Shown here one piece after another: positions 20,246 to 50,209 of a stretch of DNA of 64,000 nucleotides (its first letter is position 1; every line of letters starts with the position of its first letter). The DNA lies in the NCBI GenBank assembly GCA_037176845.1, contig JAYKXP010000037.1, positions 124,001-188,000 on the forward strand. Direction: 5' to 3'. This DNA comes from Paramarasmius palmivorus. Taxonomy: Eukaryota; Basidiomycota; Agaricomycetes; Agaricales; Marasmiaceae. The translations under genes and the position numbers were made by a program. The notes beneath the pieces were generated by a model. The model made no database searches, was not told the DNA's origin, and was given only the letters and a program-made list of their open reading frames with translations.

Positions 20246-20942
20246 TCAATAATCTTCAAGGCACGATGCACGAGGTGCACATACAGAATTAGCCTGAGCC
20301 TGCGAAGGCACAGACGATGCAGGAGGCTCGGACTGAGTAGCTAGTCTTTGTTTAGCCTCTGCCTCAGCTGCTTGCACTTTGAATTAACTTTAGTGAGAAG
20401 GCTTTCTTGATGCTTTACACCGATTGACTCACTGCGTAGAATACGCTGCTGGCGGCTCTCGATGTATGAATCTGGTCAAAAAATTGTTTGTGAAGTCATA
20501 AGTATGAATGATGAACACCGACGTACCTGGGGTAACGGAGCTATTATTGGTCAATGTACCGATTCCAACATTGCGAGTGAAGAAGGTACGTCCGTTTGCC
20601 TGAGGAGCGCCCGTGTTACTTGGTGGTAAAGCTAAATCAGACGAGGGTAAGTAGATATGACTGGAACCGATGAATTGAAGCTCACCTCCCGGCATCAAGA
20701 GGTCACTATCGTTATGTGTGACAACAAAATCAGCAGTGTTATGGGTACGAAAGTGTTTGACGGTAGTATTGGTGGTGCTTGTGCCGTTTTCTGTGATACA
20801 ATCAGAGGTTACAGCAAGACATATCACAGGAAGGCCACTCACTATCATGTACACGGCTATAATTGAAGGTCTCCCCGTAACGAGCATCGTTGTGAGTTAC
20901 AGCAGTGTCAGGAGCAACCTGCTCGTCGTCTCTTGGGCTCAT
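20246..20942 (-). CDS. Asn/Gly-motif family member H (divergent)
   Basis: Five-exon gene of the cluster family, 159 residues. Exons are 20843-20942, 20686-20790, 20527-20631, 20433-20471 and 20246-20376, all introns phase 1, frame closing exactly. Exon 1 reads MSPRDDEQVAPDTAV then THNDARYGETFNYSRVHD. Exon 2 carries NTADFVVTHNDSDLLMPGG and exon 3 RNVGIGTLTNNSSVTPG. Exon 4 is the invariant 39-nt module (SYIESRQQRILR). Exon 5 begins MQAAEAEAKQ, a helical-looking tail that ends CLEDY. The motifs are degenerate compared with the copies at 27217 or 36390, so without the intron pattern it would not be recognised. Function unknown. Confidence 0.78.
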
Positions 20943-22650
20943 GATAGTTTGTAAATCCGGGGGGAGTAGAAGTAGGAGGTTCTATGATGATCTATACATT
21001 GTATATATCCTCTGGGAAACAATCTGCATTTGGACAAAAGAACGAGATTAGACCTTGTGCTCTATCAGGACCCACAAAGTAAGCGCTTACCAACACCGCT
21101 CAACTAGCCTCGTTGCCTATCAATTCACTTCGAACAGAAGAAACCATCCGTTTGGCACCGAGGACATCGAGAATTATGTCAAATGCTGTTGAAATCCCTT
21201 CTCTAAAATCGTCGACTTCAGGGGAATAAGCTTGCGTAGGCATCGGGTCCGTGGTTATGACTCTGCAGTAAACGCCGAGTCGGTCCTTCTCAAGTCATGT
21301 CGACTGATGAATGGGCTAGTTGTCTGATGTGTGAGAACGATGGAGTCGTGAAGACATTGTATGCAGTGCAGCCAGCGCCAGAAGAACGTCAGAAAAGGAG
21401 AGATTAAAGATGTTGAAATGCTGTTCACGTCGACTCACGAAATCTTCTCGAACAGCCTTTGATGTCCTTCTTCGGATTTCAGCTTCAGAATAACTACCTG
21501 AACCGCATCAGATTCGAATAGATGATAGCGATATCGTTGTGGATTATATGATCGTGGATTGGCGATGGTGAACGTTGAAAATTTGGCGGTCCCAGGCGGT
21601 CCCTGGACCAGTTCGCGGAGCATGCCGAAAGATTACGGCGTCCATCCATCCTTTTCAACCCCCATCATTGACTGGATTCGGCTGAAAGGCAACATGCTCG
21701 TAGCACATAGGTCCCAATAGATGTGCGCTCAGGTGTGTAAATTGTACAGGATACAACACGAGCGGCTACTTAAATACGTTACCACATATAGCTACATGAC
21801 CTCACCACTGGCAGTCGCGCGATGCCGCCCGCGCAACACGATTGCCACACTCGCCGATTTCCTGGACTCCCTGTATTGTGTTCAACGCTACGGTTGCTGG
21901 TACCGCAGCTATTATCTAGTTACTTCGTAAGCCTACTAACAGTCCGTAATTATGGTACGTACAGTGCTGCCTAAGTATCTGCGTTTCAAAGGTTGATTCA
22001 TCGACCAGACGGAGCATACACGGGATCGTTCCAGTACAATCAAACGATTCAGATTGTATTTCTGCGCATCCTTGATGCTCCACAAACCAGTCTTGAAGGA
22101 ATCTGATGTTGGACACTTGACAATTTTCCAGAACTGGCTGATCCTTCACGTAGCCGCATGTCATTTAGGTGATGCCTCATCATCGGCTGACATATCTGGC
22201 TAGAAAGTGTTCATAGCGCGATTCATCATTGATTTCTGAACAAGATCAGATCTCTGCGATGCGCTCAGCGGTTTTTTTAAAACACGATATTGAAGATCGG
22301 TGTTGCTCGAGCCCGAAGTGTAAGTGATCTGTTTTCTTCCAATAGTAAGCAGTGTCACTAGCGGCTTGTCAGTCTTTACAGTCAGCGATTGAATTCAAAC
22401 CCACGCTACTTTTTCCGTGGGGCGAGGCTTGTACATTTATGTCCAAACTGTAAACCTTATTCAAAGGGCTCTATCTACTGCTTGCTCAAGTATAAAATAG
22501 TTTGTCATCACATCGTGAGTCACACCAATTCTCTCCGGAAATTCCGTGGTCAACTGCTTGGTAGGCAGTACACCGACTCACCATTCCTAGACAACTTCCT
22601 ATCCTTTCCCATCATCTCACAGACACACTCACCCGACATATATCTTGGCA
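20943..22650. other. Mostly gene-free stretch; possible HET-like fragment
   Basis: No intact gene. A minus-strand frame at 21916-22164 (LQDWFVEHQGCAEI ... MLRLVDE) vaguely resembles the start of a HET domain (W-x-x-x-H-x-C ... P-x-R-L-V-D) but has no supporting continuation. The rest shows nothing. Confidence 0.3.
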
Positions 22651-23396
22651 ATGAGTACATTCGTTACAGTCGAACATGGTGACGGTAATACCACTTTGAA
22701 TGGCGTAGTCATTGTCGAGGTCCCTGCCACCCAAGCTCGAAACTCCACACCAAGACGACATGCTACCCATCCTCAATCTACGCTGAGCTTGCCAGTCTCC
22801 TTTCCCGAAGCGGAGCTCATATACTATACCACTCAAGACGGGACTAGGAATTTGGTTGTCAATGGCTCGGTCCTTTCGGGTAGGTGTCAATTTAACCATA
22901 TACTCTTTGATTCAGACGTCTTGCCCTTAGACAGATCTATCAGCCCTGCCGGCCAGCGGGTGGTTCTGCCGCTGTCACAACGCAGGGAAAGCTCCAATAT
23001 TCTCATCCAAAATTTGTTCAGAAAGCCGTCAATGTTCGTTACAGTGCAGACAGGGAACAAGAACAAGACGTGGAATGGATGCTACGACGACACGTCTATC
23101 AGTTTGCGTCCATCCACGATCCGATTCTTCTTCATAGCCAAAGACGAAGGCCAAAGAAACAATGTCTTCAATGGAGTTAACTTGAATCGGCTGCAGAGTC
23201 ACGATGGTAAGTTTCGATAGTTCCAGCTACCTAGTCGCGTGCGAACTAATGACACTGTTTAGTGGAGGTGATAGCATCTACTAATAGACGTGTCTGGACT
23301 AAGACTTGCACTCGTGACGGTCAGACCTTCGTTTGGAAGAACCTTGGTACTGGAGGACGGATGTTTGGGGCCCGAGGGCGGTCTTCTACAATCTGA
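22651..23396 (+). CDS. Five-repeat Asn/Gly-motif protein (family relative I)
   Basis: Unrecognised protein of 229 residues. Exon 1 is 22651-23206 and exon 2 is 23263-23396 (phase 1 intron, frame closes). A 36-nt in-frame segment, 22880-22915, has GT...AG ends and might be a tiny intron. The chain is five degenerate repeats of about 40 residues, each an aromatic strand followed by a G-x-x-N-x-x-x-N-G turn. They read VTVEHGDGNTTLNG, YTTQDGTRNLVVNG, VTVQTGNKNKTWNG, IAKDEGQRNNVFNG and KTCTRDGQTFVWKN. No signal peptide. The repeat resembles the single-motif exons of the neighbouring gene family and of the gene at 48893, so it is taken as a relative. Confidence 0.75.
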
Positions 23397-23899
23397 GCGA
23401 TAATTCAAGGACATAAAAGCCTTCCGGGATCCGTTGAGTAGGGGGGAGAAGTCTTTAATTGGGAGACAAAGGCGCAGGAGACGGCAGGTATATCCTTCAC
23501 TCGGAGGTGCTTACATGCATGCCGAGTCATGCATCATGTTTCAACGAACCAAAGCAAACTGCTGCAGTTACGACTAGGTATATGGCCTAGCTGGACAGGC
23601 ACAAGGATTATACGGACTTGGCACTCGATGGACCATGACGCAGGTACAAAGCTCACTAGCGTAAATACTATAGCTCTGGATGTAACCACTCTCCGTACAT
23701 ACGGCATTTATCACAAATCCTTCCGAACCTTCCTGCAGTCTCTTCCTCCTTCCGCCGGCTCCTTTGTTTTTGTACCACTCCCAATCATTCCCAAGATACG
23801 ATCTGTTCCGAATAGACCACCAGCGGGAATCCTAGGCGCCGGAGAAGTGGAGTCGAGTATCGTAACACTGCGTCAAGGTCGGGAAGGTTGCAATAACCC

Positions 23900-25150
23900 A
23901 TCATCGAATCTGACAATTTTCGAGCTCAAAACGTTGAAACGAAAGAGCTGGTGAAACCAGTGCCCAGTTTAAATTGAAGTCCTCGAGGAGAGGCGCATTC
24001 TTTAACAAGTCCAATAACTGTGAACAATTGAGGGCTTGCGAGAAACACGATAGCTTACCGCAATTGGCCATATCAATCTCATAAACGCACAAATCGACAG
24101 TTAGGAAGACGAAGTAAATGCTTGCCACCGTATGCGAGCGTCCTGAGGCATCAGTAAGTACCCGTCCCCTGGCATTTCGGCACGGAGCTGGTATGCCGTT
24201 GACATTTTGCCCAAAATGCCGAATGCCGCATGCTAGGCCTTGTTCGCCGATATGCCGATCACTATGGTCAACACATAGGTGCGGATCATGTAGAGCTGTA
24301 GCAGGGCATAGAATATGACCAATGGCTATCAAGTGAGATACCAAAGGCGCATAAAATCAAGAAACGGCAAACCAAAGGCGATATTTCCGAAATACTCACC
24401 AGGCGTTACTGATACGCCGCCCGCCTTCAGATGTCCACGATTCGACGGAGAACTGCGAAGCGGCAGAGGTGCCTCGTTTGAAGAACCGATCATCGTAGGT
24501 TTTCAAAACCCGGAACACTACCAAGTCGACTAGTGGATCCGTTTCCTTCCGCACGAAATGTATCCCGAAGACCGCTGAAATCGAGGGAAGGAGTCGACGA
24601 GCTGCGAGAATACCTCTGGCGTAGTGAAGAGGATTCCTTGAAAGTCTAATCTATCAACATGGGAGAACCTCCACACAAGCAGAGAGGATGTGCAAAGTTT
24701 CAGAGAGCAGGCCTTCACCTCAACGAACAGCGTCCACAAAACTGCTGCAGCATGATATTGTTGCGTGAATCAAGAGATATACACTCGATATTCGTCAGGT
24801 ATAGGGTACTGGAAGGCGATGTACAGCAACCCTGGAATGGCCGAGGAGAGCAGTGAGATGCGAGAATCATAGAGCGGAAATCTTCTAAAGCCCATGCCAA
24901 ACAGGTCCAAACATTTTCAAATGCAGACGTACGCGCGTCGCCGGAAATGGTGTCCACCAACCCCTCGAGCCTTTCGCTGGTCTTGGGAATATGGAATCGG
25001 AAATGAAGGAAGAGGTGCTGCATTAATACCGCTAAACACGAACATGAGGCTAGAGAGCAGGAAGTGAGCATTTGCTTCTCCGTTGGCAGTCCGTACAGTG
25101 ATCCTGCATGGGTAATAGTCAGCTCGATTACTTCGTGTCATGGGGAAAGG
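23900..25150 (-). pseudogene. F-box/LRR-like remnant
   Basis: Several minus-strand fragments in different frames carry the leucine-rich rhythm of agaricomycete F-box-like proteins: LHFRFHIPKTSERLEGLVDTI near 24980, LDFQGILFTTPEVFSQLVDSF near 24650, and LLDLLKNAPLLEDFNLNW near 23990. No start, N-terminal F-box or consistent splice set connects them, and stops lie between. It reads best as a decayed gene. The assignment rests on pattern memory only. Confidence 0.4.
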
Positions 25151-27169
25151 GTATCACCTTGCTGACTTGTAGGGCCTTTAGCTTCGGTACCTAGCCTCCA
25201 GTTACCCCCGTCTAGGTCTCGGGCACCACTCCACAGTGGAACAGGCCTTCCGGGAATACCATTGCTCACTCATACAGGTACACTTGAAATTTGAAGGCTC
25301 CCCACATACCCGTCGCTGAATTGCCAACGGCGATGAAGAGAGACATCCACGGCGATACAGTAGAAAGTGCTATCGAAGCTGAGAGCTTGATCAGGGATGT
25401 TGGGCTAGGCTATACAATAGCAGCTTACCTTGGACTGGTCCCTGTGTTAAACAACAGGACGGTGTTGCAGCCTTGGTCGTACTTGGTTCCGTAGACTGCC
25501 AGAGTAAGAATGGGGTATCATGATACATAGAACCAGGCCCTGCCTCGTTCCGTACAGATTCCGCACAGCGCCCATTTGAATGGCCGACACCTCACTTTTA
25601 CCAGGATCACCGCTCAAATTGACGCCCAGCTAACAGCCCGAATGGTCAATGCTGTATAGTATGTCTATTGAGTACATGGCTGGCGCTTGATTGCTGAATT
25701 CGTGCGGGTAGCTGGGAACGAGCGCATCATGATGTCCATAGTGCTGAGAGTTGTGACCTTCCGCACGCGTCGTGCGAGGTCAGAAAGACTATTGTTAACA
25801 GAAGGTGAAATGGGGAGATTGGGAAAGGCTTCGGGGAACAGAGGCTTGCGTGTGTACTGTCAAAGGGCGCATGGCCGTTAGAACACAGACACAACAGTCG
25901 GTAGCATGCGGGTCACTTGCCTCACCCCATCGGTGCAAAAGCTGTCATACAAACGGCACGGCTCTACGTTTGGACAGATAGTTGTTGAGAAAGTTTGTTA
26001 TCGATCAGCAGTCCGGTACTATTGACTCGGTGAACGGGCTTTAGGACTGTACGAGGCAATGGATGAGATCCGCGGCTCGAGACTCAGAGAATGACGTGTC
26101 TGCAAAATCGCTCCTCTGTATCCATGCTCAACGTATCCGGGGTACACTGAGACTTCAAGGGAATCAAATTAAGCACGAGCTTGCAATTGACGGATGCCAC
26201 ACACCATCATTCGTTTTCAACGTTTCAACACTCCAAGACTCCCCCTATGCCCTATGCTCTAACTTCAGGCGCCACAAGATTGCTGCGTGTACCACCAACA
26301 TTGATCTTCGTGTTTTCTATAATGGTTCTCTTCTATTTTGATCTTCATTAGGGCCGTGGCACTGGAGGGACTGACAGCAGACGACAACTGTATATGAATG
26401 CTTGCGTGGGGTGTGCACATCTCGATTGTGAAATGAACCAGGGATATGGACTAGATCATGGGTCTTATCGGTATCGAATCATAAAGCATGGTGGCGGAAG
26501 CTATGGAGATAGAGTTAGCAAACAAAACAGCGACAGGAGTCTAAATATGCACCCTTGAGCTGCTCATGCATCTGTGGCTAGAAGGTATTGGTCACATTGA
26601 CGATGTGACGAGATGGATTCGATCCAGACGAGGAAAGGTTTCGACGAGACGAAAGGGGGAATGGGGGTAGAAAGGACGAGAAAGACGAGGACTGAAAGGG
26701 GAGTGAAGAAGGCGTGAGGCTGGAGGCTGGAGGCTGGGATGCCGCAAGCGGAACCTTTTCAGACAAAAATTTGTGGACCGTGTAGATCTACAAATTTAAA
26801 GCACATGCACCACCTGCTCGACGCCCACTTTCAGTGAACTCCTCCCAGGCTGAGGCGCTGAGGCTCTGGTATCGCTGGTCCAGGTCGGATTGTGGGGAGA
26901 AAGTTTCCGAGAAAAGGAGATTCACGTGGTCTTTCCGAGATTCGGTAAGACCATCACGGACGATCATCTCAGAAAATAACTATAACTCTTTACTCTCAGC
27001 GTTATAGCTATACAAGTTAAACAATCAATCTCGTTGATCCAAGGGTAAGCAGCATCTTTCCTACTATGGGAAAAGGCTCATCAGATATGTGAACATGCTG
27101 TTTTTTCTCTCTTTTTTGAATAATAATAATAATAGCCCCATTCCATGCCCTCCGGACGCTCGTTTTTCA
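25151..27169. other. Gene-poor stretch upstream of family member A
   Basis: No supported gene. A short AAT repeat lies at 27119-27133. A purine-rich strip around 26640-26750 gives a Ser-rich minus-strand frame that is only compositional. Confidence 0.45.
27119..27133. repeat. (AAT)5 microsatellite
   Basis: Five AAT units directly after a T-rich run, about 85 bp before the start of family member A. Confidence 0.8.
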
Positions 27170-27176
27170 TATAAAG
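27170..27176 (+). promoter_or_regulatory. TATA box of family member A
   Basis: TATAAAG, about 45 bp upstream of the ATG at 27217. Confidence 0.5.
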
Positions 27177-27216
27177 TGCTTCCTGCGGTTGATGCCAGAC
27201 CATCACTCTAGTCTTC

Positions 27217-28380
27217 ATGACCCACATAAGGAGTACGCACCGACGACATAGTCAATCCCGAGGCGTCCCCGGTACACAAGCAGTGGAGTATGTCAACGAA
27301 GGAGACTTTGGAGAGCAGAATATCGGTGTAACATACTATTCCTGTAGGATACTTTAACCTCATCTTTACCAGCGCTGACCTCTCTACTATAGCTGAATAC
27401 ACCGTCAAAACAGCTACCATACCGGAAGCACCTAGTGCGAGTCTAAGGAATCACATCAATTTGACGAATACAGGTAATTATACAGCTACTAACGTTGATA
27501 CAAGCTTTGTGGTCAAAGGAGGTGAGCTTCTCTACACGTGAAAGATGACATACATTCACTAAAATGTCCCTAGCCACCGTCAAGAGCGTTGGTTTCAGGA
27601 CTGACCGGCTTGTGAGCACCATAAATAAGGGAGATGGTAATATTACAAACCACCAGTCAATTTTGCCAGGTTCGCATTACCTTCTCTGATACATCACTAC
27701 CAGTATGACGAGTATCGGTTAATGCAGCGGGCTACAATGACGAGCAGCGCTTGGCGATCATGGAACGTAAATAATCTCGACACACACTCCCCTATTAGCT
27801 ACTAAAATCTCCGCCTTTGTTTAGTCCAAGCGTATCGGGACAAGGTGCTGGGGAGATGGCATCCTAGTCCAATCGAAGTAGATGCAGGGCGGCGGAGATC
27901 TGTGGAGAAGAATATGAGCTCTCAAGAACTGTGGAACCAGGTCGACTATGATCAGAGCCAGAGCCAGGTTCCTCTGGCTCACCTCCACGAAGCACCTGGC
28001 TCTCCTTTCCATTCAACGCTAGAACTTAGCTCACACTCGCTGACCGTTCCTCCCGACCCCCCTCCTTGCCTGGATACCAGCCCAGAGCCTTCCAGTCAGA
28101 CCATACCGGCGCCCGAAAATGTTAGTGCATATAGTCGGCCGCCTTGCTTGGAAGAGACAGAAAGCTCTGGATCACATTCGCCAATGATAGGCCGCCAACC
28201 TAGTGCTTCAGGAGTAATGTCATTCGCTAAAGAAATATTTAGTGGTGTGTCTTTTTTTAGCCGACATGTTTGACTATTTATCCCATTCCCTGCGCAGAAG
28301 AACGGATGAAATGGCTACTGTGGTCCTCCATAATCATCGCTTCAATTCTAGTTTTCTCTCGCCGACCTCCCGGTTTATGA
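27217..28380 (+). CDS. Asn/Gly-motif family member A, tail-anchored
   Basis: Best-preserved member, 297 residues. Exons are 27217-27343, 27393-27521, 27574-27669, 27728-27766, 27825-28244 and 28298-28380, all phase 1, closing exactly. Exon 1 has a basic leader (MTHIRSTHRRHSQSRG) then VNEGDFGEQNIGVTYYS. Exon 2 has TNTGNYTATNVDTSF and exon 3 STINKGDGNITNHQSILPG. Exon 4 is the 39-nt module AGYNDEQRLAIME. Exon 5 starts LQAYRDKVLG and runs into about 130 residues of Ser/Pro/Glu-rich low complexity. Exon 6 codes EERMKWLLWSSIIIASILVF-SRRPPGL, a hydrophobic C-terminal helix flanked by basic residues. Without the last splice the protein would end FSRHV at 28273. No signal peptide, so the repeat domain would face the cytosol. 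Function unknown. Confidence 0.85.
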
Positions 28381-31293
28381 TCTCTACGTGATTTGTCATT
28401 TAAATATCCCTTCAAATGGAAGCTCGTTGAAAAGGATATCTCCGATCCGCAGTTCGACGTGGTAACGATAATCTGGCTTCTTACCTATCTGAACGCTGCG
28501 GTGGCTCGCCAAGATTTCACGGCGTCGAAAATTCATGGCGATCAGGCCTTGGGGTTGCTTTGGTTGCCTTAGAAAACCAGCGATGGTGGGCGTTCATTCG
28601 CCCCTACTCAAGCGAATACTCAAATCAATAGCTACCGACGATGCTCCGATTTGATGAATTTCATATCTAGTCCAGGAAGACGCAAAGAAGTCGCCGCATC
28701 GGAGAAGAACGCTCCAGATCAGTACGCGAACCAATGTGATCGAGGTCGCAATGGAATTAGTAAACAGTCCAAGTACAAGTACGTCGGTGCGTATTCTCGA
28801 TTGTATCCAGATTTCTCCACGGAACGTTGCTGCCCGTGCCCGAGCACCAGTCACTTATATGTACGAGAGCGGCAGAACGTTTTCCGTGGCGTGAGGCGTA
28901 TAAGCGAACGAGTGGAAGCGAGAAGGGACGAGATGAACCATCAGAAATCTTTAGAGCGAACTACTTGATACCAATCCTGGTCGTTTTCTCCGGCAGGGAG
29001 TGCAAATGGCATACGAACGGGCTTTACCTTGTAAGGATCTTTCTTACATACAAGTCCACCGAGGTATTGGTGCCAAAGAAACTGTAATGTTACCGCCCGT
29101 TGTTGGCATCTCCCGCTGTTCCGCTGCAGCTCGTTCGTCAGGCCTCGAGTGGGAGGCGTTTATGCCGTTTATGCGGGTCCTATTGCTTAATTTCCAGGGT
29201 GAGGAAGGTGTGGCAGAGTGAGAGGTCAAAAACTTTGGCAATAACTTAGATTGGAACTTAGCGCCTAAACATTTCCTGCACAAATGTACCGGTAGTATAT
29301 TCTACCAATTTTGGTGACTGTCAAGAATATTTTTCCTGCCCCGAGTATTAGATATTAGATATTGCGAGTAGGAACCAAGAAAAGTCAGCGTGAATATTTA
29401 TATACCAGGACATTTTAATTTTTTACCGAACAGGCCCTTACCGTCATCAGTACGACCCCTGCGCCGGTCCACAGCAGGTTTTCTAACTAATATCTAATCA
29501 TCATAGATCATGCTTACCGTGTCATCCTTTGACCTCCAGCTGAGTATCCTGACCATCATCATCGTGACCCAGAGATTCACTTACCTTAGACCGAATGGAT
29601 TCAGAGCTGATCGTCAGGGTATCGTCAGTCTGGATTCTCGAGATTAGCGCTGAAGATAGTTGGCGCTGGTTCCTGTCACCTTCGTCACTGTGGGAATGTG
29701 AATTTTTTCCCATATTAATCGCTCCCGTGGGAACCTCTACGTCAGTCTGCATGGTTGCGCATCGCCGTTTGTCGAGTTTCTGCTTTCTTTTTTGATTCAC
29801 TTCACCTCACATGCAACAACACCGACTTCGTAGTTCTACCGGCCACCCATATTTCTATCACCTTTACCAACTCTTTACAAGCATGTGAAAGGTCAACCTG
29901 AAGACAAGCCGCGCAGGGAGTTCTAAACGCTCGAGGTTCAAATCAAATGGATTATTGGCCGGTATATCCTCTCATTTGCCAAAGAAGTCCATCGTCGACG
30001 TTTTCGGGTTCTTCCTATTCATAAGCCGCTGCCATTCCATGTTCAATGTTCGTCGTCGCGCCGTCAGGCCTCAGGTATTGGCGAATAACCTTATTTCTCA
30101 AATTCAATGGCTGAAAACCATTCTTCAAGAACAATCTAACAAACTTCGTACCAAGGGCTCGTGCCCGCCAACGGTCCCCGTTGGCCCACATTCCGCATGT
30201 GAGGTTGTGGATCAGTGCGAATCAGTGGTCTTCTATCCCGCTCGGAAGGCGGCAAGGAGCGGGATAGAAGTCCTCATCAATACCACTACGGCAAGGTACT
30301 TTCGGACGTGAAGTAGTGGAAAACACCAAGGAAGTTGCATGGGAACAAACCCTCGACCGCCGTTTGTTCTCAGTGATGGGAAGACAAGGTATTGGATCTG
30401 GATGTGGGATACGGAGAGTTTATTTTATTATACATGGTGCGTTCTATATTTCATGATCTCCTTTGACACGTGTTATGTCCAGGACTACGATACTCTGCCA
30501 TTCTTGCCGTTATAGTCTATCCTGCCATTCCTTCGTAATGACAATCAATCTTTCCAACCTGTTATCCTCAATCATCATTTCGGGCGAGTAGGAACACGCG
30601 CTCCTCAAAATTCCGCAAGAGCCTTTTAGAAAGTCTCTCCGAGCTTCACGAAAGTGCAGCATAGATACTATGTCGAGCTCCCTCCTGGGCGCGTTGCTAC
30701 GTCAATTATGGTAGAATAGTCTGCGAAGGAATCAGTTGTCGAGACTGGGCTGCTCTTCAGAGACCGGTGGCTGGTCAGGACGAAGTATGATGTCAGCAGT
30801 TGTTCCCCAAGCCCCGTTTACAAGATCAGTTACCACCATAACTCTTGTTCCGATTGCCAACGACAGTGTTTTTGGTACTAGGTCTGGCTTGGTTTCTCCG
30901 CCTCGGTGCGTTCAATCATGCTTCGCACCGTTCCGTCTCGAGTCGAAGCTGGCCAGAGAACAGTACTTCCTTGTCTCTGGCTACCAACTTTATAAGTCTA
31001 TGTCCTTCCTTTGCTTTGAACATGGGTCATATAGATAGATATATTTCCGTAATTCGTTTCGGGTTTTTGCATTCTGATGTATGTATCCCCACCGAACAGT
31101 TTGCTTCTAAATGGTAGCTAGAATCGCACATTACATTCCTTGTGTATTTTGATCACAGACAAGCAAGGTGTTCGCCGCGGCACGCGGCACTTCCCAAGTG
31201 TTTCATCTTTGTAGTAATGGCAGATCCAATTGAGCTTGTAATGAAGTCTGGGGTTAAGATGCTATGTACTTACCTTCCAAGTGCCTTCAGGCT
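28381..31293. other. Long gene-poor stretch
   Basis: No gene supported. A minus-strand frame at 29522-29800 (MNQKRKQKLDKRRC ... HSDEGDRNQRQLSS) is followed by a good donor (gtaagtgaa) and could be a first exon distantly like this family's exon 1, but no partner exons were found. Plus-strand frames at 28651 and 29955 have no motifs. Confidence 0.4.
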
Positions 31294-32609
31294 TCAGTCA
31301 GTTTGCATGTCCTCGATGGCAGACTTGCCGTCAGTATAATCTTCAAGAGACGATCGAGACCCTGAATGATTACCCGATGAATGAGCGTGATATGGGGGTT
31401 GAAAATCGGTGGGATTGGAAACATTCCGTCTTTCATCTCGAACCCGGAGACCAGGCTCGTAGCTTGGTCGCCGATTGGGGTAGCTAGATCCATCGTCAGA
31501 GGGGTAGCTTAGGCGATCAGCAAGATCAGGATGATGACCCCGGTTGTAGTTGGGATGATAGCCGGGAGGATAGTCGTCACCGTAGTAGCCATGACGATGA
31601 TCAGGATAATAGTGGGGTCGCTGGTCAGGATAATAAACTGGGCGACCCTCGGGGTAATAGGAAGGTCGCTGTTCAGAATGATAAGCAGGATAGGCATATC
31701 TATCTGGGTTATAGCCAGCTTGCCTGCCACGGTGATAATGGAAACGAGGGTCATGGTTGCTGGACGGCTCGCTTGGACGGTAATTGGAATGATGATTCGA
31801 TTGTGGGCGTGGATAAGGGTCAAATGTGTTCGGGCCATGGCTTTCTTGATGTAAATCACCCATTCTACCCGTTACCGTCCACTGTTCACCATTACGACCA
31901 TTGACTTCATGGGAGGTTGCATACGGATTGTGCACGGAAGAGACAGGATCAAGCCTTTGCAGCCCTCTCGATTTCTGCTCTCGTAGGGATTCGACTTTTG
32001 ACATTGGTAAGGCTTTGCGATTGGGCGGCAGACAATACTCAGTTACTCACGTTCTATTATTTCTCTCCGCTGCTTCATGTTATAGTCCGCTGTTTGGGAG
32101 ATAGAAGATCAGAAACTATTCGGTCAAAGGGTGATTGTCCCACTGTACCAGGTAATATAGACCTGTTATTCGTTATGTTCCCGTTTCCCTTATTGACAGT
32201 ACTGACCGAACGTCTACCACTAGGTGCTCTGCTCGTTACGGTAGCTATAGATTCTATGTGAGATTCGGAGATGTCCAAGGTATACGGTCCATTTAGACGC
32301 ACGTACCTCCATCCATGGCAAAGTCAGTGTCGATGTTGGTGGCATTGAGATCACCCGTGTTCTTATAGATAGTTCTTTCCTCGAGGTTTAACGGTTGGTT
32401 TAGAGGCGGCTCCTTAATTGTATAGTTAGCTGTAAATAGATTCAGTCTTGCTTGAGGACGAAGCTCAAGCCAAGTGACTTACGAGAATGCATCCTCACGT
32501 TATCGTTCTGTTCTCCAAAATCGCCTTCATTGCTGTGCTCGACAGTAGGAGGCAGTTGGCTTGGCTGTACTCCAGTCCTACGGGACCTTCCATGCTCTGC
32601 TGGAGACAT
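31294..32609 (-). CDS. Asn/Gly-motif family member F with Tyr/Pro/His-rich tail
   Basis: 361 residues. Exons are 32483-32609, 32307-32429, 32149-32244, 32051-32089 and 31294-31994, all phase 1 and closing exactly. Exon 1 is MSPAEHGRSRRTGVQP then SNEGDFGEQNDNVRMHS. Exon 2 has KNTGDLNATNIDTDFAMDGG and exon 3 STVNKGNGNITNNRSILPG. The 39-nt exon codes ADYNMKQRREIIE. The last exon (LESLREQKSRG) extends into about 200 residues dominated by Tyr, Pro, His, Asp and Arg with imperfect YYPDxRPxYYP-type repeats, unlike any other copy. That composition suggests a disordered, possibly phase-separating tail (inference). It lies in tandem with member G, on the same strand. Confidence 0.87.
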
Positions 32610-32682
32610 TCCTGAAAAGTGAGAGGAGGATCGGTGCGAAGAGCGCGTAGAAAAGTGTAGAAAGACATACCGAAGGGACGGG

Positions 32683-32689
32683 CCTTATA
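32683..32689 (-). promoter_or_regulatory. TATA-like box of family member F
   Basis: TATAAGG on the minus strand, about 75 bp before the ATG at 32609. Confidence 0.4.
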
Positions 32690-33013
32690 TGTTGCTCTAC
32701 CATGGCATCCAGCTGACTGGAACTCAAACTAGAATGGTTCAAATCTAGATACATCTGATCATGACAGGAGGATGTTTAACGCCGAAGCTGCTGTATGTGA
32801 CTCACACTTCGGACTTTGGATACAGCAAATCAGCCCATGAATTTGTTCATAGCTTCTCAAACAGAGGTCAATTCAAAGAATACATACTATTCTGGCCCGG
32901 CGCTGTAAGGTGATAGCGCAATGTTATCGAGACATGCTTGAAGTACGATAAAATGGAGGAGGTGAAGTGGGTGATCATGGTCGATTGTAAGTCCAGCGTG
33001 GGAAAGGAAAGCA

Positions 33014-33032
33014 TTTTTTTTTAAAAAAAAAA
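33014..33032. repeat. Poly(dT:dA) tract T9A10
   Basis: Nine T followed by ten A, a self-complementary homopolymer block between members F and G. Such tracts exclude nucleosomes in fungal promoters; here it would sit about 400 bp upstream of member F. Confidence 0.7.
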
Positions 33033-33112
33033 TACACAAGTAGTAAATTTACGTCACGACTTGTAAATTAGCGCTCGCAACCAATGTGGCGTTGACCGGT
33101 ACCACCTAGCGT

Positions 33113-33759
33113 TCAGAGCGGCGATGTTGGTTGACTTTCAGCTCGAGAAGCCTGATCTAGGCTCTTTTTGAGCGCTTGGACTGCACACAAAGAGTCAAAG
33201 CCAGGAAGTTGTCAAAGAGATAGTAAACTGTGTGAAGCTAACTTACGCTCCATCGCTCTCTTCATATGTTCGAACCCGTAATCCTCTGCATTAGGAAGTT
33301 GAGCAAACGACCGGTTTCTGAAGTGTTGGAAGACTTACTAGGGAGCACTGAGTGTGTGTTAGTTAGATTGGCCATCCCTGTTGTGATTGTGCTCATTGTC
33401 ATCCGCGTTTGTGGGCTTTTATCAAGCGGGTAAAGGACTACAAAAGTCAAAAGGATTCAGCTGGGAAGAACTTGGTCAAATCAATGGCATACCTCCATCG
33501 TGCACGAAATCTGTGTTGAAATTGGTGGTATTATAGTCGCCTGTATGGGTGATATCATGATGGGGAACTTGGCAATTCGAGGGGTTGGGATCGGTGTTGG
33601 AAGAAGCACTAGCACTAGATGCTGCTCAACAGTTAGAAGCTGCTCAAAGGATAGAGATAAATGATATTCACAAAAGTGTCTTACGCCGAGATTGACTTCC
33701 GCGAAGTTGCCGACATTTGTTATGCTGGAGTTCTTGCCCAGGTCAGAAGATTTGTTCAT
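33113..33759 (-). CDS. Asn/Gly-motif family member G (short)
   Basis: 140 residues. Exons are 33672-33759, 33493-33621, 33339-33437, 33247-33285 and 33113-33180, all phase 1 and closing exactly. Exon 1 is MNKSSDLGKNSS then TNVGNFAEVNLGVRHF. Exon 2 starts with a Ser/Asn run (SSSASASSNTDPNPSN) and carries THTGDYNTTNFNTDFVHDGG. Exon 3 has STITTGMANLTNTHSVLP, where the usual GDGN is GMAN. The 39-nt exon codes KDYGFEHMKRAME. The last exon is very short (LQALKKSLDQASRAE), ending in SPL. The exon 2 acceptor could be 3 nt upstream. A TATA box lies 40 bp before the start. Confidence 0.82.
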
Positions 33760-33798
33760 GATGATCTGAGAATCTAGAGTCGCTAGTACTAGAGGCCC

Positions 33799-33806
33799 TT
33801 TATATA
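33799..33806 (-). promoter_or_regulatory. TATA box of family member G
   Basis: TATATAAA on the minus strand, 40 bp upstream of the ATG at 33759. Confidence 0.6.
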
Positions 33807-36389: not shown

Positions 36390-37406
36390 ATGATTCACGA
36401 GAGAACGCGTCGAAAACGTACCCCGACTACTTTGCCACAGGTTGAGCCCACAATTCGAACAGTAGAGCACGTCGCAGATGGAGATTTCGGCGAGATGAAT
36501 GTTGGTGTAACATATCACTCATGTATGTGACTGAATTGCATTCCTAGGCGAATACTCACTCCATTAATAGCACGATATACTATCGAGCCCCCCGAGCAGG
36601 ATGGAATTTATTCCAGTCTCAACGAACGCATAGCATTAACCAACACAGGAAACTACAACGCAGTAAACGTTGATACAAACTTCATCAGTGAAGGAGGTGT
36701 GCTCTCCACGTGCGTTGGCCTCAACTGTGTCTCACTCCTACTCCGTAGCGACCATGAAGGCCTTTACAGTGAGAAGTAGCCGCTTCGTCAGCACCTTGAA
36801 CAAAGGAGACGGGAATATTACAAACAGCGACTCGATACTGCCAGGTGAATACTGTCCACTTAAACCTCTGATTTTCAGTAACATGACCCCGTGTTAACAG
36901 CAGGGTACAACGAAAAACAGCGTGCCTCAGTCATAGAACGTGAGCTTATGTCTATATCCACTTCCACTTCATACTGACACTGTTCAATAGTCCAGGCATA
37001 CTACGAAAAACTGCTAGGCAGCCGGTGCGACCAAGCGTCTATGAATACGACCGGGCCTTTTGAAGTTGATCACCTAAAGCGTGGAAGTTCGCAATTTTCT
37101 GGGTGCGCTGGGCCTTCAGAAAAGGCGGATACACTCTCCTGCGAACATCGCTTTGCAGTTCCTTTTGACGAGGAAGGATGCGGAACGTCATCCAGTACTT
37201 CTGGTCCCATATCTGTTCATGCAACCGTGGACAGCTTCAAGCCTATCCCAGAAGGATACCAGTGTGGTAGGGCCGACGGTACAAGCAATGTTACGAGAGA
37301 CACTCACTCGAATTTTAGATCCAACTTCCCCACCTGCTCAAGGTCCGTCTCACAGAGACATGATTGGTCATTTACTCACCGAAGTAAACAGGAAACAAGT
37401 GTTTGA
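36390..37406 (+). CDS. Asn/Gly-motif family member B
   Basis: Five-exon gene: 36390-36522, 36571-36696, 36749-36844, 36901-36939, then a last exon to 37406; all introns phase 1. Exon 1 has a basic leader (MIHERTRRKRTPTTLPQ) then VADGDFGEMNVGVTYHS. Exon 2 has TNTGNYNAVNVDTNFISEGG and exon 3 STLNKGDGNITNSDSILPG. The 39-nt exon codes AGYNEKQRASVIE. The last exon starts LQAYYEKLLG and continues for about 140 Ser/Cys/Asp-rich residues, ending KQETSV. Just beyond, another frame (about 37391-37495) holds a hydrophobic stretch (SSLLVISLVRQPLASLIIFF) that could be an alternative spliced membrane tail like that of member A. The acceptor of the last exon precedes TCCAGGCATACTACG near 36990. Confidence 0.85.
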
Positions 37407-38275: not shown

Positions 38276-39162
38276 ATGCATTCCAGAGAGACTGCTCACC
38301 GGGGAATGGAATCTACCTCTCCAGCGCCCACTAATGGTGGTCGCAAGCGCAAGTCTCACACACACCACCAAGGCTTTCTCGCGGTAACCAATGTTGGCGT
38401 ACAACAAGAACGTCACTGGGACGTCCAGTCCGTACAACGAGGACGTAAGTGGGAAATCCAGTCATTGGGCCTTCGCTGACATTGAAGTAGCTGATAATAA
38501 CGGGTATCTCAACCCCGAACATCAAGAAACCGATGAACCTCATTACCACGATGTCATTGACGAAGGCCTCTACAACACCACTAATATTCGAGGCATCATT
38601 CGCCACCAAGGGAGTATGTGTATATACCTCGAGGTTAGTTTCAACGACGTTAATGAAGCAGCAATTACAGGTGCCACAATTGAGCCCTTAGTCCCGCGCC
38701 CAGTCACAGCAACTACCGACAGCTACACAACCAAAACGACAAAGACTGCTGTTGGATCTTTGACTAACTACGAATGTGACTTACCTCGTAAGGTGTTCTG
38801 ATTGTCTCTTCAGGTTGATGTGAACACTGAGTACCGATGTCACATATTCATTAGCGGGATATGAGCAAAAGCGGCTCAAGGATACGATGGACCGTAAGTC
38901 AAATCTGGCTCCCTGTCTGGTTCGAGCTAAGCAATGATTGCGTCCAGTTCAAAAATACTACAACGAGCAGCTAGGGCAACAAATGCACATCCCTGGTTTA
39001 CTTCAGGCGAGGCAAAAGCCGTCCTCACAAGCGCCACCGAACGACCGTTCCGGTGTTCAGCATATGGAAGGGGGTACAGACGACGACATTGAAGTCGAAA
39101 AAGATGACGAAGGCTGGTATACTGCAAAGCGTGAGCACTTAAAAACAGCATCGCATCGATAA
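38276..39162 (+). CDS. Asn/Gly-motif family member E (divergent)
   Basis: 220 residues. Exons are 38276-38444, 38491-38613, 38671-38787, 38855-38893 and 38948-39162, all phase 1 and closing exactly. Exon 1 has a basic, His-rich leader then VTNVGVQQERHWDVQSV. Exon 2 carries VIDEGLYNTTNIRGIIRHQG and exon 3 TKTAVGSLTNYECDLP. The motifs have drifted, but the 39-nt exon (PGYEQKRLKDTMD) and the LQKYYNEQLG opening of the last exon are diagnostic. The tail ends in an acidic-basic segment (DDDIEVEKDDEGWYTAKREH). The exon 3 acceptor could be 9 nt upstream without frame change. The start could be the next in-frame ATG, 27 nt downstream. Confidence 0.8.
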
Positions 39163-39843: not shown

Positions 39844-40516
39844 ATGAGCGAGATCGACTCATTTCTCCAAGGCGATTTTGGAGAGCAGAGCTTCAGCGTA
39901 AGGTATCACTCTGGTATGGGCTATGTTCATAAGTATTGTAACTCGACTGATTCTTTAGGCAGCGGAGTACACCATCGTTTCCCCGAGCGAACCCTTAGCA
40001 AAGGCACCATTTACATGCACAATTACAGGTAGCTACAACGCTACAAATATTGATACGGATTTTGTTGGTGAAGGAGGTTGGAATGGTGTCACGCAAGCAT
40101 ATCACAAAGTTCACTCATAATCCTCGTACCCAGGGATGGTATCTATTACTCGATCAGGCGAGCGCGTCGTTCGAATCGTCAACAAGGGAAATGCCAACAT
40201 AATGAACAGTGGATCGATATTACCTGGTGAATAACCTTCTTTTCCCGCACATATTGTCCGTGACAAGACTGAGGGACTTTGTCGGGTATAGAGGGCTATA
40301 ATAAACAGCAACGTATGGCAGCCATTGATCGTAATGTCACCTTTTGGCGCCTGGACCGTTACCTCATCCTGATACCAACACGTTCTATATTATTTTTTTT
40401 TAGTTCAGGCATATCACCGCAAGGTTTTGGGAACGTATTCCAGTATGAAGGTTTCTGAGACGCGTACTCAACGTACTCAACAATGGGTATGTAGCGGACC
40501 GGCCCGTCGGCGCTAG
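39844..40516 (+). CDS. Asn/Gly-motif family member C (minimal)
   Basis: 142 residues. Exons are 39844-39913, 39963-40076, 40134-40226, 40292-40330 and 40404-40516, all phase 1 and closing exactly. Exon 1 is unusually short: MSEIDSFLQGDFGEQ followed by SFSVRYHS, with almost no leader. Exon 2 has ITGSYNATNIDTDFVGEGG. Exon 3 has RIVNKGNANIMNSGSILPG and the 39-nt exon codes EGYNKQQRMAAID. The last exon (LQAYHRKVLGTYSS) ends after about 37 residues with CSGPARRR. This is close to the bare core shared by the family, so it is a useful guide to the essential parts. Confidence 0.85.
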
Positions 40517-42880
40517 CGCTACAGTCCGATTTTCCGCCGTTCTACTTTCCACATGCTGCACGAATCTCAATAAGATCTGTACCAGGATCAACGCCAGCTT
40601 TGCCATCATCAATACCGGTCTTTCGATGGCGAGGACGCTTCGCTTGACGAGTCACTGCAGAATCGAGATTCTTCGGTAGGTTTCCATACACCGCTGCCAG
40701 GTATGTCCACGTGAACTCGAAAAACTCGCGATTGATCCACAATGTCGAGCAGACCACAACCAGGAATGGCCAAGTACCCAGCCACTCAACTGTGAGATAA
40801 TGGACACATCACTTGATGGTGATGGTGTGCCAAATCACGGTTATGTGACAGCGGTAGCGAGCCCTGAACCGGAGAATGCCTGCTTGCCCTCTGTATATTG
40901 ATACAAGACTGGCGGCGATGTGACTGGCGATATCACCGACACTGTCGCCTCTCAAGCAAAAACACTGAGCGCAACGTATTGTCAACGAAAAAATTCATAC
41001 ATGTCCGTGCGGAAGAACTGAAAATCGTCTGACTGATTCAACATTTCATTTGTTGTTACTTGTATGAAACACCACTGGTGTCAATATTTTGTGACACAAT
41101 ACCTGTATTCAACTACATACTTGATACTAGACATGTGAAAACGTGGGCGGCGCTTGAGCTTGAGCATTCTGAGACGAAGAAAGAACGATAAGTCATATGG
41201 AAGTGACAAGTTGGATTCATCGCATAGGTATTTTTGGACTGGATGCTACGAGCCTATGGCACTGGTACTCAAAGTACTCAAACTTGGGGATTGCATAGTA
41301 GAACTAGAAGACTCGACCAGATAAGCGTGGCGGTCACATGATTGTTCAAGGTACAAAATGCTTGGGCCGAACGGCCTCGGAATGGTCCGGGCGACCCAGT
41401 CTAACGTGGACGTCGACGGTGCCCAAGATTTTCGCTCGTTTTCCTTTGGGCTCAGAGTACCTCCATAATTCACATCCGAAGATTACAGCGCTTATTCGTT
41501 CAAGTAGGAAGGATTCTTCATACCCCAACGACTCACGGTGATACACGCACGAGGTGAACCATCGCCTAGCTACACACTTTTCTGCTTGTAATTGTTGGAT
41601 AGGAAGCTTGAGGTATGTAATTTATTTGTCTATGGTTCTTTCATAGTTGATCCTAGGTCCACTATTGATTTCAGCTCATCGTATATGTTCAATGTTGACA
41701 AGCCCGTTCGATTGCCGTTCGACATACTTCTCTTCACCGGCTCTACCACTGAGGTGCGCATTCGCCACCACTTTAGCCTGGATATAGGCTGGGAATTCCT
41801 TCAAGATGCGTGGATGTGGGGCGAGGAACTCTCAAGGCGTTAATACTAGCACACTGGTAAGTTACACATGATTGCCTGCTGGAAACCCTTGGTTGATCAC
41901 CTCAATAATTTGAAACTCGACGTAGATGCTTGCAAACACAGTAACCCTCATCTTGATCGTCGAATATCGTTCATCACTTTGTGAAGGCATGTAAACCCAA
42001 AGCTCCCGTAAGTTTACAATTGGACCCCTCAAGGCATTCTACGATAGAGCACCCAAGCACCGATATCATCGATCATATACTTACTTGGGGAGAATACCGG
42101 ATGGGTGAGGTATTACTCCGAGCGTTTCTTCGACATATTGACTAACGTGCCACATCAGAACAGCAAACATAATATTCCTTCCGATTTCGATGCTCCCATT
42201 CCAGGTGCTTTCCTGATTTTTCACATCCTGTTTGGGACACCCCGTTATCTTGTCAAGCTAGGACGTTGCGTGTTCAGTGTCAATTAAATAGTACGAATCC
42301 GGAAAGTACTATTAGGTGTGGACAGAGCGTACTCATTCGCGCGACATCGTTTAGTCGGCACATAACGACACGAGGCCTGACACGCTAGATACTCTGTCTT
42401 CTTGGTTCGCCTAACGACCGGTGCAGAATCGTTGGAATTGGGGAGCTTGATAACGAACTGGGAGACGCAGCTGTAAACCAAGGACAGCGAGACAGCAGAC
42501 AGAAGGTGCCTGCCGGGATAATTGCTGTGAGGTATGTATTCTCAGATTGATCAAGTGTCAAACCTAGTTGTCCTTATCGCTGTCCAAATAGCCTGATTCG
42601 GAGCTTCCCCTGTGGAGTCTGGAAACTGAAGACTGCGGCAATGATTCTTGAGCGCTTAAGCGCTTGCCAGACTGCCAGTGCACCTAAACCCCATCGCATT
42701 GCCATTTCTCTGGATCGGAGCCCACCGTCCGAACTCTTCGTAAAGTTTGCCCCTTCCCTCACTTCCCGGGTACATCAGGAGATTTCAGATGCGTCCTAAT
42801 CGGGTACCAAGACTTGGACGGCGCTAACCTCAACTACCTCCGTAGTCAGGTGTACCCAGTATGTTGTGGCGAAGCTGTTG
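40517..42880. other. Gene-poor stretch between members C and D
   Basis: Frames at 41592-41843 and 42105-42287 have no recognisable domain and no supporting splice partners. Nothing else seen. Confidence 0.45.
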
Positions 42881-42888
42881 TATAAAAT
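42881..42888 (+). promoter_or_regulatory. TATA box of family member D
   Basis: TATAAAAT, about 55 bp before the ATG at 42940. Confidence 0.55.
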
Positions 42889-42939
42889 CGATTCCTTGTT
42901 GTGCCTTTCCTATTGTCAGCACCATCTCACCTTACACGA

Positions 42940-43690
42940 ATGCGTCCGGCAAAGAGTGGTAGAAACCCACGCAGAGTCAGAGTACGACAAGCCGAAATCG
43001 TCGTTCCTAGCAACGTCGTGCACACCAATGAAGGCGACTTTGGGGAACAGAACGATGGCGTAATAGTTCACTCTGGTAAGGCACTTAGCTCAAGCTTTAG
43101 GCTTAGAACACTGATCTTCCTCCAGCCGCTTACAGTCTCAGCGAGCTAGAACATCCTGCCGGTGGAACATCCCTAAATCTCAGTGATAGAGTCCGCACCG
43201 AGTACAGAAACACTGGCGATTTCAACGCCACCAATATCAACACTGACCTTGTTCGGGATGGAGGTACTATATTCAAATTCTTTACACTATGTATACGTCG
43301 CTCACCTCGTCTCTGTAGCTAAGGTTAGGAGGAAAGCACATGGCGGTGAACGTGTAGTGAGCACTGCCAATAAGGGGGATGGTAACATAACAAACAATAG
43401 GTCTGTATTACCTGGTACGTTCTACTGCTCTGATCTTACTGAATACACCCTGATGTTTTGCCTCCAAATCAGAGGACTATAACTTGAAGCGGCACGAGCA
43501 GATCCTAAAGCGTAAGCCAATTGGTACTTATATTCAATATACACGCGCTGATTGAATCAATCGCCTTACAGTCCAATCTATGCGACAGAAGCAGAAAGGC
43601 CCGAAAAACGTGGTTTCCCAGTCGAAGGATAAGTCATGTGAAGATGATAACCAAGGTTATTCGACAGCCCCTGAAGATTCGGACGGTTAA
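42940..43690 (+). CDS. Asn/Gly-motif family member D
   Basis: 175 residues. Exons are 42940-43075, 43126-43263, 43319-43414, 43473-43511 and 43572-43690, all phase 1 and closing exactly. Exon 1 has a strongly basic leader (MRPAKSGRNPRRVRVRQ) then TNEGDFGEQNDGVIVHS. Exon 2 carries RNTGDFNATNINTDLVRDGG and exon 3 STANKGDGNITNNRSVLPG. The 39-nt exon codes EDYNLKRHEQILK, with Gln-Arg replaced by Arg-His. The last exon begins LQSMRQKQKGPKN and ends in an acidic Ser-rich tail. The motifs match members A, B and F closely. Confidence 0.87.
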
Positions 43691-44446
43691 CGCAGGAGAT
43701 TGGTACGGACTGATCAACATTCACGCGCACGATCGCTCTGAACGACTAACAGCACCTTCACAGGTGTGATAAAATACTGTTAGTTAGCCTATCAGCCCGT
43801 AGCTCTGTGTATGTACTATCATTCCAAATCTCAATATTTCTCGTTGCTCGGACTCGAGGCTTGATTACCGATCTGGGAAGCAGAGGATGATTAATGATTA
43901 CTCAACGTTCAACTCGCACTCCACATTCCTCTTGGTTCCCTTGCCTGCCCACAAGGACCTATAAGTTTGCGTTTCTCTCTTGGGAGTTCAACGCCGTACT
44001 CTTGTAGTAGCTATACAGTGTGATTGTCTGACCAAAGTCGCACATAAATCATGCATGAAATTCGTTTCTGCTCATGTCGCAGGCGTAGTCAATATGCCTA
44101 GTGCCAAATATACATTGATGATAGATATGACGATCCCCACCGGTCAGTGGTCACGTCTTGGAAACTTGCTCACTTATATTCTGAGTTGACTTCTTCATTT
44201 CTTCTTACTTTCTTCAACTTGCATATCGTTGTCGTCTGAACTTGCGAGTCCCCTAAAATCACAACGAAAAAAATGTATTAACATCAGTAATGCAACTTTT
44301 GTGAGCGACGAAAGCAATGAAAGAATGCAACGAAAAGAAAAGTAAAGACCCATATCGTAGTCCCCAGGTGAAAGAGTCCTTCTATCCAAGACGGAAGGGA
44401 ATGGGAAGTGATGAAGAACGGGACTGAACGTACCATTCCTCATCGC
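43691..44446. other. Spacer; possible extra 3' exon of the next gene
   Basis: On the minus strand a frame ending GLASSDDNDMQVEESKKK (near 44195-44250) follows an acceptor and could be spliced to the gene at 44447 through the donor gtaagc at its stop. Otherwise nothing is seen. Confidence 0.35.
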
Positions 44447-46039: not shown

Positions 46040-46522
46040 ATTATGCCTACAAAGCACTGGTATTACGAACCTGAAAAAAGCCATCAGTTATTCCGCACAA
46101 AGAACAGAGAAAAAAAGTGGAAAGAATCGAGAAAAAGAAGCAGAAAAGAGGAAAACTCACCAACAACGACCTGAATTAACAAGATACAGAACAGTTCATG
46201 ATATATAGCAGCGAATCGTCCGCTGGCTTGCAAGCGGAGGTAATGATGGAGATGGTGGTGACAGAGCAAGTCCACTCCACCTCCCAGCGACGACATTCTG
46301 CTGGCACATGGCCGTCTTACTTAAGCATTGTCACGTCAACGGGCCGTCACACATGTCACTTATTGCACAAGGCCCCAACTACCGGTTGCCTCGTGGCTTC
46401 CGCTTTTGGGAATCTTGAACAGCTTTGTTTTTGAACTTGTTTTCTAGAACAATCTATTGACTCTGGACATGACTTTGTAGACTACACTAGTCTGCCTCGT
46501 GTTATTCTACCGTCCCGGTCTT

Positions 46523-48728: not shown

Positions 48729-48892
48729 TCGATTCGATAGGCCAAGGGGTGAGACTCGTACAATGCCTGGTTCTCTCTTGCTTGTCCAATGGCGTAGAAA
48801 GAAGAACAAGTTGCGAAAGACTCGTTACCGGGTTGGATATGAGTCAACTCGAGATTGAATGGCGAGTCAATGGACGAGGGAAGGAACCACGG

Positions 48893-50209
48893 TCAAATTT
48901 TCGCGGGCGTGATGGCATCAGAATTGACAGAAATTCCGCTCCGGATCTTATCTCTGTTGAAAACGGCTGAACGTTGAACGTTGAGCGTTGATAAGGGACC
49001 CTCTGGTATAATAGGAAGTACATGTCCATAGAGATACAACAGGGAACGATCAGGAAATAAACTATAATGGATAATATTCGCATCGCCGTATGCCCGACGG
49101 TGGACATGATTTTGAACGTATGTGCTGATATCTGTATACCCGTGGATCATAGACTCTCTGACCAGACCTGTTGAGTTGCGTGAAATCAAAGCTCTCTAGG
49201 TGCAAGTATTAGAACCCAAGGAATAAGGCCTCATTAACACTACATAGAGCACGTACCGGGAATAGCAGAACCATTGCAGGTAGTATTGCCATTACCAACG
49301 TTATGAGTGATATATACCCTGTCGCCATCGCTAGACCTGAGTATATACTGGTACAGGCCAGAGAACCCTGGAGACGATTCAGGAAGAGGGGGGTATATAG
49401 TAGTGAATCAAAACTTACCCCACGGTTTTTGTCTTGGAGGCTCTACTGGAGTAGCATGGCTGTCTTCAACCTCGTCCGGATCATCCACCGAATAAACCAG
49501 GGTGTTATTCAACGTAACACAGAAAGTTCCTTCGTTCACCGTGACCGTGCGCTCATGAAGATAGTCTAACTCCTCTAAAACGGTTTCCTCGTCGCCCGGA
49601 CGCATGATACGGTAGTATTGGTATCGTGGATCCTCTTGGAGTCGCTCACGTAGATCATCAATTTGCCTCCTACGCACTTCTTCTGGACTCGCTCCTTCAT
49701 TGGTGTCTTGGAAGAAGCCATTAGTTATAATTGGGAGTTCCGAAATGTCTTCTGGGTCCTCGGATATCGGTGTTGAGCCCATGTCGCTCTCAAAAAAGTT
49801 AAATCGCTCTTCCGACTCATCCTCGGTTCCGAATTGCTCAGATTGAGCTGCATCCTCTAATGCAAGTAATCCTAGACCGTGCTCCAGAAGTTCAGGTTTG
49901 TCTTGCTCGCCCACCTCCAACTCCTGTTCATCTGATCCCCAAGAAGGCTCCTCTAAAGAACGCAAGAACGAGGAATTTGGAGGAGACCAAGCTAGCAGAT
50001 AATGGTTTTAGTGAATGCTCGTAAGCTGTTATGACAGATGCGGCCCTACCAAATGAGCTTCCCCATCGTAAATGCATGTCAAATATAGAATCCCAAAACT
50101 TCCATTTCTCCTCCTTCGATGGCAGGATCAATGGAAGATCCGAGCCCGACTGAGGAGTCTCAGGGAGACAGGTCGAAGCGCAGGACGGTGTTTCGTCTGT
50201 GTGTTGCAT
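48893..50209 (-). CDS. Multi-repeat Asn/Gly-motif protein J
   Basis: 372-residue relative of the cluster family. Exons are 50050-50209, 49419-49991, 49257-49367 and 48893-49167, all introns phase 1, closing exactly. The N-terminal 200 residues are acidic and probably disordered, starting MQHTDETPSCASTC. Three repeat units follow: RTVTVNEGTFCVTLNNTLVY in exon 2, RVYITHNVGNGNTTCNGSAI-PG in exon 3, and YVQNHVHRRAYGDANIIHYS-LFPD in exon 4. Compare NKGDGNITNNRSILPG of the core family. The 39-nt exon is missing. No signal peptide or membrane helix is evident. The exon 1 start is the last ATG upstream of a continuous frame; the frame is open further, to 50365. Confidence 0.75.

Follow-up and report, generated by a model that had tools for sequence, protein, structure and literature searches.

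An unnamed family of genes with Asn/Gly-motif exons in the mushroom Paramarasmius palmivorus

Does a run of small-exon genes that carries no family name represent a real gene family, and what might its products do? This question is raised by a locus of Paramarasmius palmivorus (Marasmiaceae), a mushroom living on palm and cacao. The locus lies in a window of 64,000 nucleotides (nt), the whole stretch of DNA that was analyzed (positions 124,001 to 188,000 of JAYKXP010000037.1, here contig C37, of assembly GCA_037176845.1). A first-pass annotation had described eight genes of one design and two looser relatives within 30 kb, had found no named family for them, and had likened them to fungal amyloid signaling motifs. 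The present analysis confirms that an unnamed gene family exists in P. palmivorus and that it is larger than that annotation saw. Eight genes of one kind (type A) lie within 30 kb, together with two distant relatives (type B and type C), and it is nearly certain that the three types make up a real superfamily. Among the titles listed in literature searches, none was devoted to these genes.

The models of all eight type A genes, which were present where they had first been placed, were rebuilt from the window DNA. They share a layout in which motif exons 1, 2, and 3 are followed by a fourth exon, 39 nt long in 8/8 genes, and then by at least one last exon. The core introns, four per gene and 46 to 73 nt long in the final coordinates, have GT-AG boundaries and are in phase 1 in 32 of 32 cases. 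The complete five-exon pattern, with closure in frame across the core, was found in every one of the eight genes. The last-exon acceptor of gene 36390, previously read by frame only, proved to be an AG, and for gene 31294 an AG acceptor that closes the frame was also found. The LQAY-like start attributed to the last exon held as LQ in six of the eight genes, the others beginning with LE (31294) and MQ (20246).

The genes are named here by the positions under which they were first described, and the 39-nt exon is the fourth in each case. On the forward strand are 27217 (27217 to 28380; exons 27217-27343, 27393-27521, 27574-27669, 27728-27766, 27825-28244, and an optional sixth, 28298-28380; 297 residues), 36390 (36390 to 37406; exons 36390-36522, 36571-36696, 36749-36844, 36901-36939, and 36991-37406), 38276 (38276 to 39162; exons 38276-38444, 38491-38613, 38671-38787, 38855-38893, and 38948-39162), 39844 (39844 to 40516; exons 39844-39913, 39963-40076, 40134-40226, 40292-40330, and 40404-40516), and 42940 (42940 to 43690; exons 42940-43075, 43126-43263, 43319-43414, 43473-43511, and 43572-43690; 175 residues). 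Gene 38276 is the most diverged member and was placed by its exon architecture, and the tail of 39844 may extend past another intron. On the reverse strand are the strongly diverged 20246 (20098 to 20942; exons 20843-20942, 20686-20790, 20527-20631, 20433-20471, 20285-20376, and 20098-20220), 31294 (31294 to 32609; exons 32483-32609, 32307-32429, 32149-32244, 32051-32089, and 31294-31994), with a tail rich in Tyr, Pro, and His, and 33113 (33113 to 33759; exons 33672-33759, 33493-33621, 33339-33437, 33247-33285, and 33113-33180), with a very short tail. The gene limits proposed earlier needed correction at three ends: gene 20246 reaches 20098, gene 27217 can be read with its sixth exon to 28380, and the type C gene, first placed at 48893, stops at 49062.

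Two of the models have counterparts at NCBI. The model of 42940 is identical, letter for letter and over its whole length, to VNI00_009765 (P0001), and the core of 20246 is identical in the same way to VNI00_009762 (P0002). Both the 42940 model and the core of 20246 predate this comparison; the 20246 tail was fitted to P0002 afterwards.

Sequence support for the family was assessed with leave-one-out profiles, each motif exon being modeled from the other members alone. The motif 2 model recovered six of the eight genes (expectation value [E] ≤ 9.7e-8) and the motif 3 model also six (E ≤ 1.3e-5); the motif 1 model recovered five (E ≤ 0.0017), with gene 33113 reaching just 0.69. Genes 20246 and 38276 were not recovered by these leave-one-out models, and their membership is held by exon architecture, in the case of 20246 by the NCBI model too. 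When every frame of the window was scanned with these profiles, no ninth type A member appeared, the next best scores after the eight being the type C gene (0.0076, exon 3 model) and then a chance-like 0.011. Among the 21 type A pairs compared, which cover all genes except 38276, synonymous change was saturated in 17, and the ratio of nonsynonymous to synonymous change (dN/dS) was 0.26 to 0.33 in the remaining 4. Since synonymous sites are mostly saturated and dN/dS is in this range where measurable, the type A copies are old and their cores constrained. In the closest pair the contrast between introns (56 to 70% identity, versus a shuffled-intron mean of 57%) and exons (64 to 74%) is modest.

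Comparison of the three motif exons shows that they are versions of one Asn/Gly unit of about 20 residues, which is hydrophobic where it begins and continues with N-x-G-[DN], a polar turn of short length, and N. Across the 24 type A units the Gly is conserved in 21, an Asn stands two residues ahead of the Gly in 17, and another stands six residues past it in 20, so that in a 13-residue frame N stands at 5, G at 7, and N at 13. Successive Gly residues are spaced 33 to 44 residues apart, in keeping with the three related turn motifs at about 40-residue spacing originally described. The motif exon pairs scored above permuted columns (z of 4.7, 3.5, and 4.2 in 20-residue windows, where hand-anchoring on the Gly itself raises the score), and in a MAFFT alignment loose fragments from all three motif exons fell onto one another. 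A slight resemblance of motif exon 3 to a calcium loop led to the EF-hand being considered and rejected, there being no Pfam match.

The unit extends beyond type A. Profile comparison of the units of types A, B, and C showed that 13 of 21 pairs exceed all 40 column shuffles, which places the sharing of the unit beyond chance, and the looser repeats noted earlier in the 22651 and 48893 genes are by this comparison the same unit as in type A. The strongest match between types is that of A exon 3 with C (93%, E 2.9e-7), and A exon 2 and C match B unit 1 at 78% and 75%, respectively. Moreover, the intron phase after the unit is the same throughout, being phase 1 also in 2/2 introns of the 22651 gene and in 2/2 of the part of the C gene examined. 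The type B gene (22651 to 23396, forward strand; exons 22651-22879, 22916-23206, and 23263-23396) encodes 217 residues with four or five units. The type C gene (49062 to 50209, reverse strand) has an acidic first part, units near 49490-49550 and in exon 49257-49367, and a last exon at 49062-49195; its splicing upstream of 49920 is provisional. Exon 49257-49367 is the one that matches type A motif exon 3, with the same end point and the same phase.

In the window, the B and C genes are convergent and seven of the eight A genes lie between them, with 20246 outside the B gene. Further type B copies were found on contigs C35, C55, C117, and C320, and further type C copies on C55 (two) and C117 (two). 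B and C are adjacent, tail to tail, on C55 near 63-65 kb and on C117 near 114-116 kb, and on C320 a short C remnant adjoins the B gene in the same convergent arrangement. On C35 no C gene was found next to B, and around the two C genes that stand alone (near 135 kb on C117 and near 3 kb on C55) no B gene was found at a distance of up to about 1.5 kb. The surroundings of these lone C genes are 88 to 90% identical over about 3.3 kb, which indicates recent duplication, and the upstream side of B is 89% identical over 1.8 kb between C320 and C55. In the 110-120 kb region of C117, the B-C pair is flanked by two inverted copies of a gene (76% over 1.8 kb) with a P-loop-like VVTGQPGIG, two frames of which gave no Pfam match.

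The idea that type A is confined to the window was dropped, since a protein search located exon 1 on C182. Positions 25001-33500 of that contig carry exon 1 of 42940 in decayed form, head-to-head with a broken copy of 20246, each accompanied by its upstream DNA; the two partial copies adjoin there, whereas the genes are 22 kb apart in the window. The 1.6 kb preceding 42940 (41333-43121) appears for the most part to have similar sequence on C182, in pieces of 71 to 90%. Nucleotide patterns searched in the genome gave no match for an exact 17-base pattern and, in degenerate form, three places for motif 2 and eight for motif 3. These correspond to three and five of the eight array genes, the other three places being on C1, C19, and C49, where the frames showed no family gene.

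Searches of domain and structure databases agreed with the earlier statement that no named Pfam family fits. Pfam-A gave nothing at cut-off for an alignment of seven of the eight A cores, for 38276, for C, for the proteins P0003 and P0004, or for the 22651 and C35 B proteins. With the seven A cores, NCBIfam and PHROGs gave no significant match, just weak ones in one or two members. No PDB sequence matched significantly, the lowest E being 0.14 for A and 0.038 for B, and a plasmid collection gave no match. Protein searches at E 0.001 and E 10 returned four P. palmivorus proteins alone and none from other species, so that the predicted restriction to basidiomycetes was borne out more narrowly than expected. 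These searches depend on 5-residue words in common with the query and on a similar length, by which fused models and far relatives could escape, and the apparent absence of the family from other species is therefore provisional. Just two of the eight array genes were found among catalogued proteins, which indicates that small-exon genes of this kind are easily missed.

What the unit does was weighed against several explanations. The units could be amyloid signaling motifs of the HET-s (HRAM), PP/RHIM, or agaricomycete NOD-like receptor (NLR) kind, with the A proteins partnering NLRs in regulated cell death, as the first-pass comparison implied. In style there is a likeness: the type A units are of about 20 residues with Gly spacings in the 30s to 40s, and HET-s of Podospora anserina, a protein with a beta-solenoid prion-forming domain, has two 21-residue pseudo-repeats with a 15-residue connecting loop and conserved residues, Gly at 17 and Asn at 1 and 18 (PMC4055769). 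However, type A has three units rather than two, its conserved order N-x-G...N differs from the HET-s placing, none of the NACHT matches listed adjoins it, and neither HET-s nor RHIM appears among the Pfam matches listed to E 10 for seven of the eight A cores, 38276, and the B and C proteins given. The genome contains at least 85 NACHT matches, 86 candidates out of 222 having been scored. A motif at the N-termini of its NLRs gave 69 matches at E values of up to 0.59, of which 30 were read. This motif is about 27 residues long, rich in Asn and Gly, and present on many contigs. Amyloid-like motifs have been proposed for the N-termini of Agaricomycetes NLRs (NLR05/08/22/29/44) (PMC9815663), and in our reading the motif of this genome belongs to the same meta-family. 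These motifs share with the units the fungal class, the short length, and the Asn/Gly richness, but a NACHT protein bears just one copy, at its very N-terminus. A matrix made from 18 distinct motifs out of the 30 read was scored against shuffles on 12 family proteins, covering A genes other than 38276 together with B and C, and 0/12 fell under p 0.05 (lowest 0.050); the units thus gave, within the sensitivity of the matrix, no match to the NLR motif of their own genome. A by-eye impression that B unit 1 is in register with this motif likewise gained no support from the shuffles. Among the NACHT matches listed, none is on C37, C35, C55, C117, C320, or C182; NB-ARC gave 0 matches in the genome, and a search for the Goodbye domain scored nothing, controls included. 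The amyloid comparison is not supported so far, and this explanation is very unlikely.

It is also rather unlikely that the three type A units fold jointly as a soluble immunoglobulin-like (Ig-like) beta-sandwich of the CARDB or choice-of-anchor type, acting as a binding domain. Such domains carry NTG turn motifs, and below-threshold matches to CARDB (E 0.038), choice-of-anchor D (E 0.019), and antibody heavy chains in the PDB (E at least 0.14) point in this direction. Nevertheless, the first two were each obtained with one of seven members, all such matches are below curated cut-offs and confined to single members (CARDB at 14.7 bits versus a cut-off of 22.7), unrelated families score as well as CARDB, and B and C hold the same unit in other numbers. 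CARDB and choice-of-anchor D domains are mostly found in secreted or surface proteins, a setting not seen here. Somewhat less improbable, yet still unlikely, is a family of mobile or selfish genes, propagated by segmental duplication and for the most part decaying, that has no specific host role. The duplicated stretches around the lone C genes and upstream of B on C320 and C55, the decayed array copies on C182, and the confinement to this species in protein searches would all suit it. Against it stand the open core frames in 8/8 A genes, the dN/dS well below 1 where measurable, and the C117 block, the one viewed over 10 kb, in which the flanking inverted copies resemble a separate gene. Lineage-restricted tandem arrays with birth-and-death evolution are known in fungi as a class, and the tandem and dispersed copies, strong divergence, and decayed copies seen here are like them; what differs is the exon-by-exon repeat module and an array interleaved with two other superfamily members. 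As for a chance pattern in low-complexity noncoding DNA, short motifs rich in Asn, Gly, and Thr do arise readily and the intron/exon contrast of the closest pair is modest, but the leave-one-out recovery, the 32 phase-1 introns, and the identity of two rebuilt cores with NCBI models have already refuted it.

The best explanation as a whole, held tentatively and at somewhat less than even confidence, is that A, B, and C are lineage-restricted, probably intracellular proteins made of a single kind of unit, about 20 residues long and encoded by exons, and the family would most likely work through repeats that assemble or bind, joined to tails that vary. Each Asn/Gly unit would fold as a strand-turn-strand (beta-arch or hairpin), and through these repeats the A, B, and C proteins would assemble with themselves or bind each other. 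The output of each assembly would depend on its variable tail, which may be a membrane anchor, a stretch rich in Tyr, Pro, and His, or a short end. Functions in recognition or conflict would be in keeping with the birth-and-death pattern. This assembly mechanism is possible but is advanced with some doubt. In the one B protein measured, Asn and Gln make up 36% of residues 1-66, a composition that would suit assembly. In the low-confidence type A AlphaFold model, a helix spanning residues 123-144, in exons 4 and 5, is the best-scored piece. Hydropathy averaged over 19 residues peaks at 0.06 to 0.51 in seven A cores, with no strong hydrophobic segment, while the sixth exon of 27217, if used, encodes a hydrophobic C-terminal stretch that could be a membrane anchor. 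P0003 and P0004 have an N-terminus rich in Gln, Tyr, and Pro. The possible helix after the repeats, the hydrophobic stretch of 27217, the tail of 31294, and the P0003 and P0004 N-terminus agree with assembly or binding and prove nothing.

Several observations weigh against assembly or binding by a shared repeat. Two AlphaFold models, from two aligned sequences each, reached a mean predicted local distance difference test (pLDDT) of just 39.7 and 30.4. No known assembly motif was matched, in Pfam or by the NLR-motif matrix; 8 of the 21 unit profile pairs, including A exon 1 versus A exon 3, fail to exceed all shuffles; the unit is short and rich in Asn, Gly, and Thr; and a hydrophobic tail was read in one type A member alone. 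The strongest form of the assembly proposal, which we consider rather unlikely, would have the unit as a new class of beta-arch assembly repeat, unlike known amyloid motifs and independent of NLRs, with an array placed between partner genes B and C for self/non-self or conflict signaling and each paralogue bearing its own output tail.

The array is directly adjoined by a DUF6593 gene (Pfam PF20236, E 3.5e-13) at 19263-19985 on the reverse strand. Elsewhere in the window, a direct repeat of about 2 kb (6240-8270 and 9014-11051) has 78.5% identity between its copies. Frames in the 9014-11051 copy match cytochrome P450, and the 6240-8270 copy appears similar.

The A, B, and C genes thus provide a testable orphan family, in which one small exon module has been copied within and between genes and for which no relative was found in other species. 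If the unit assembles, fungal functional assemblies would be widened beyond motifs linked to NLRs. If it does not, the family would still illustrate well how exon duplication can enlarge a protein family within one lineage.

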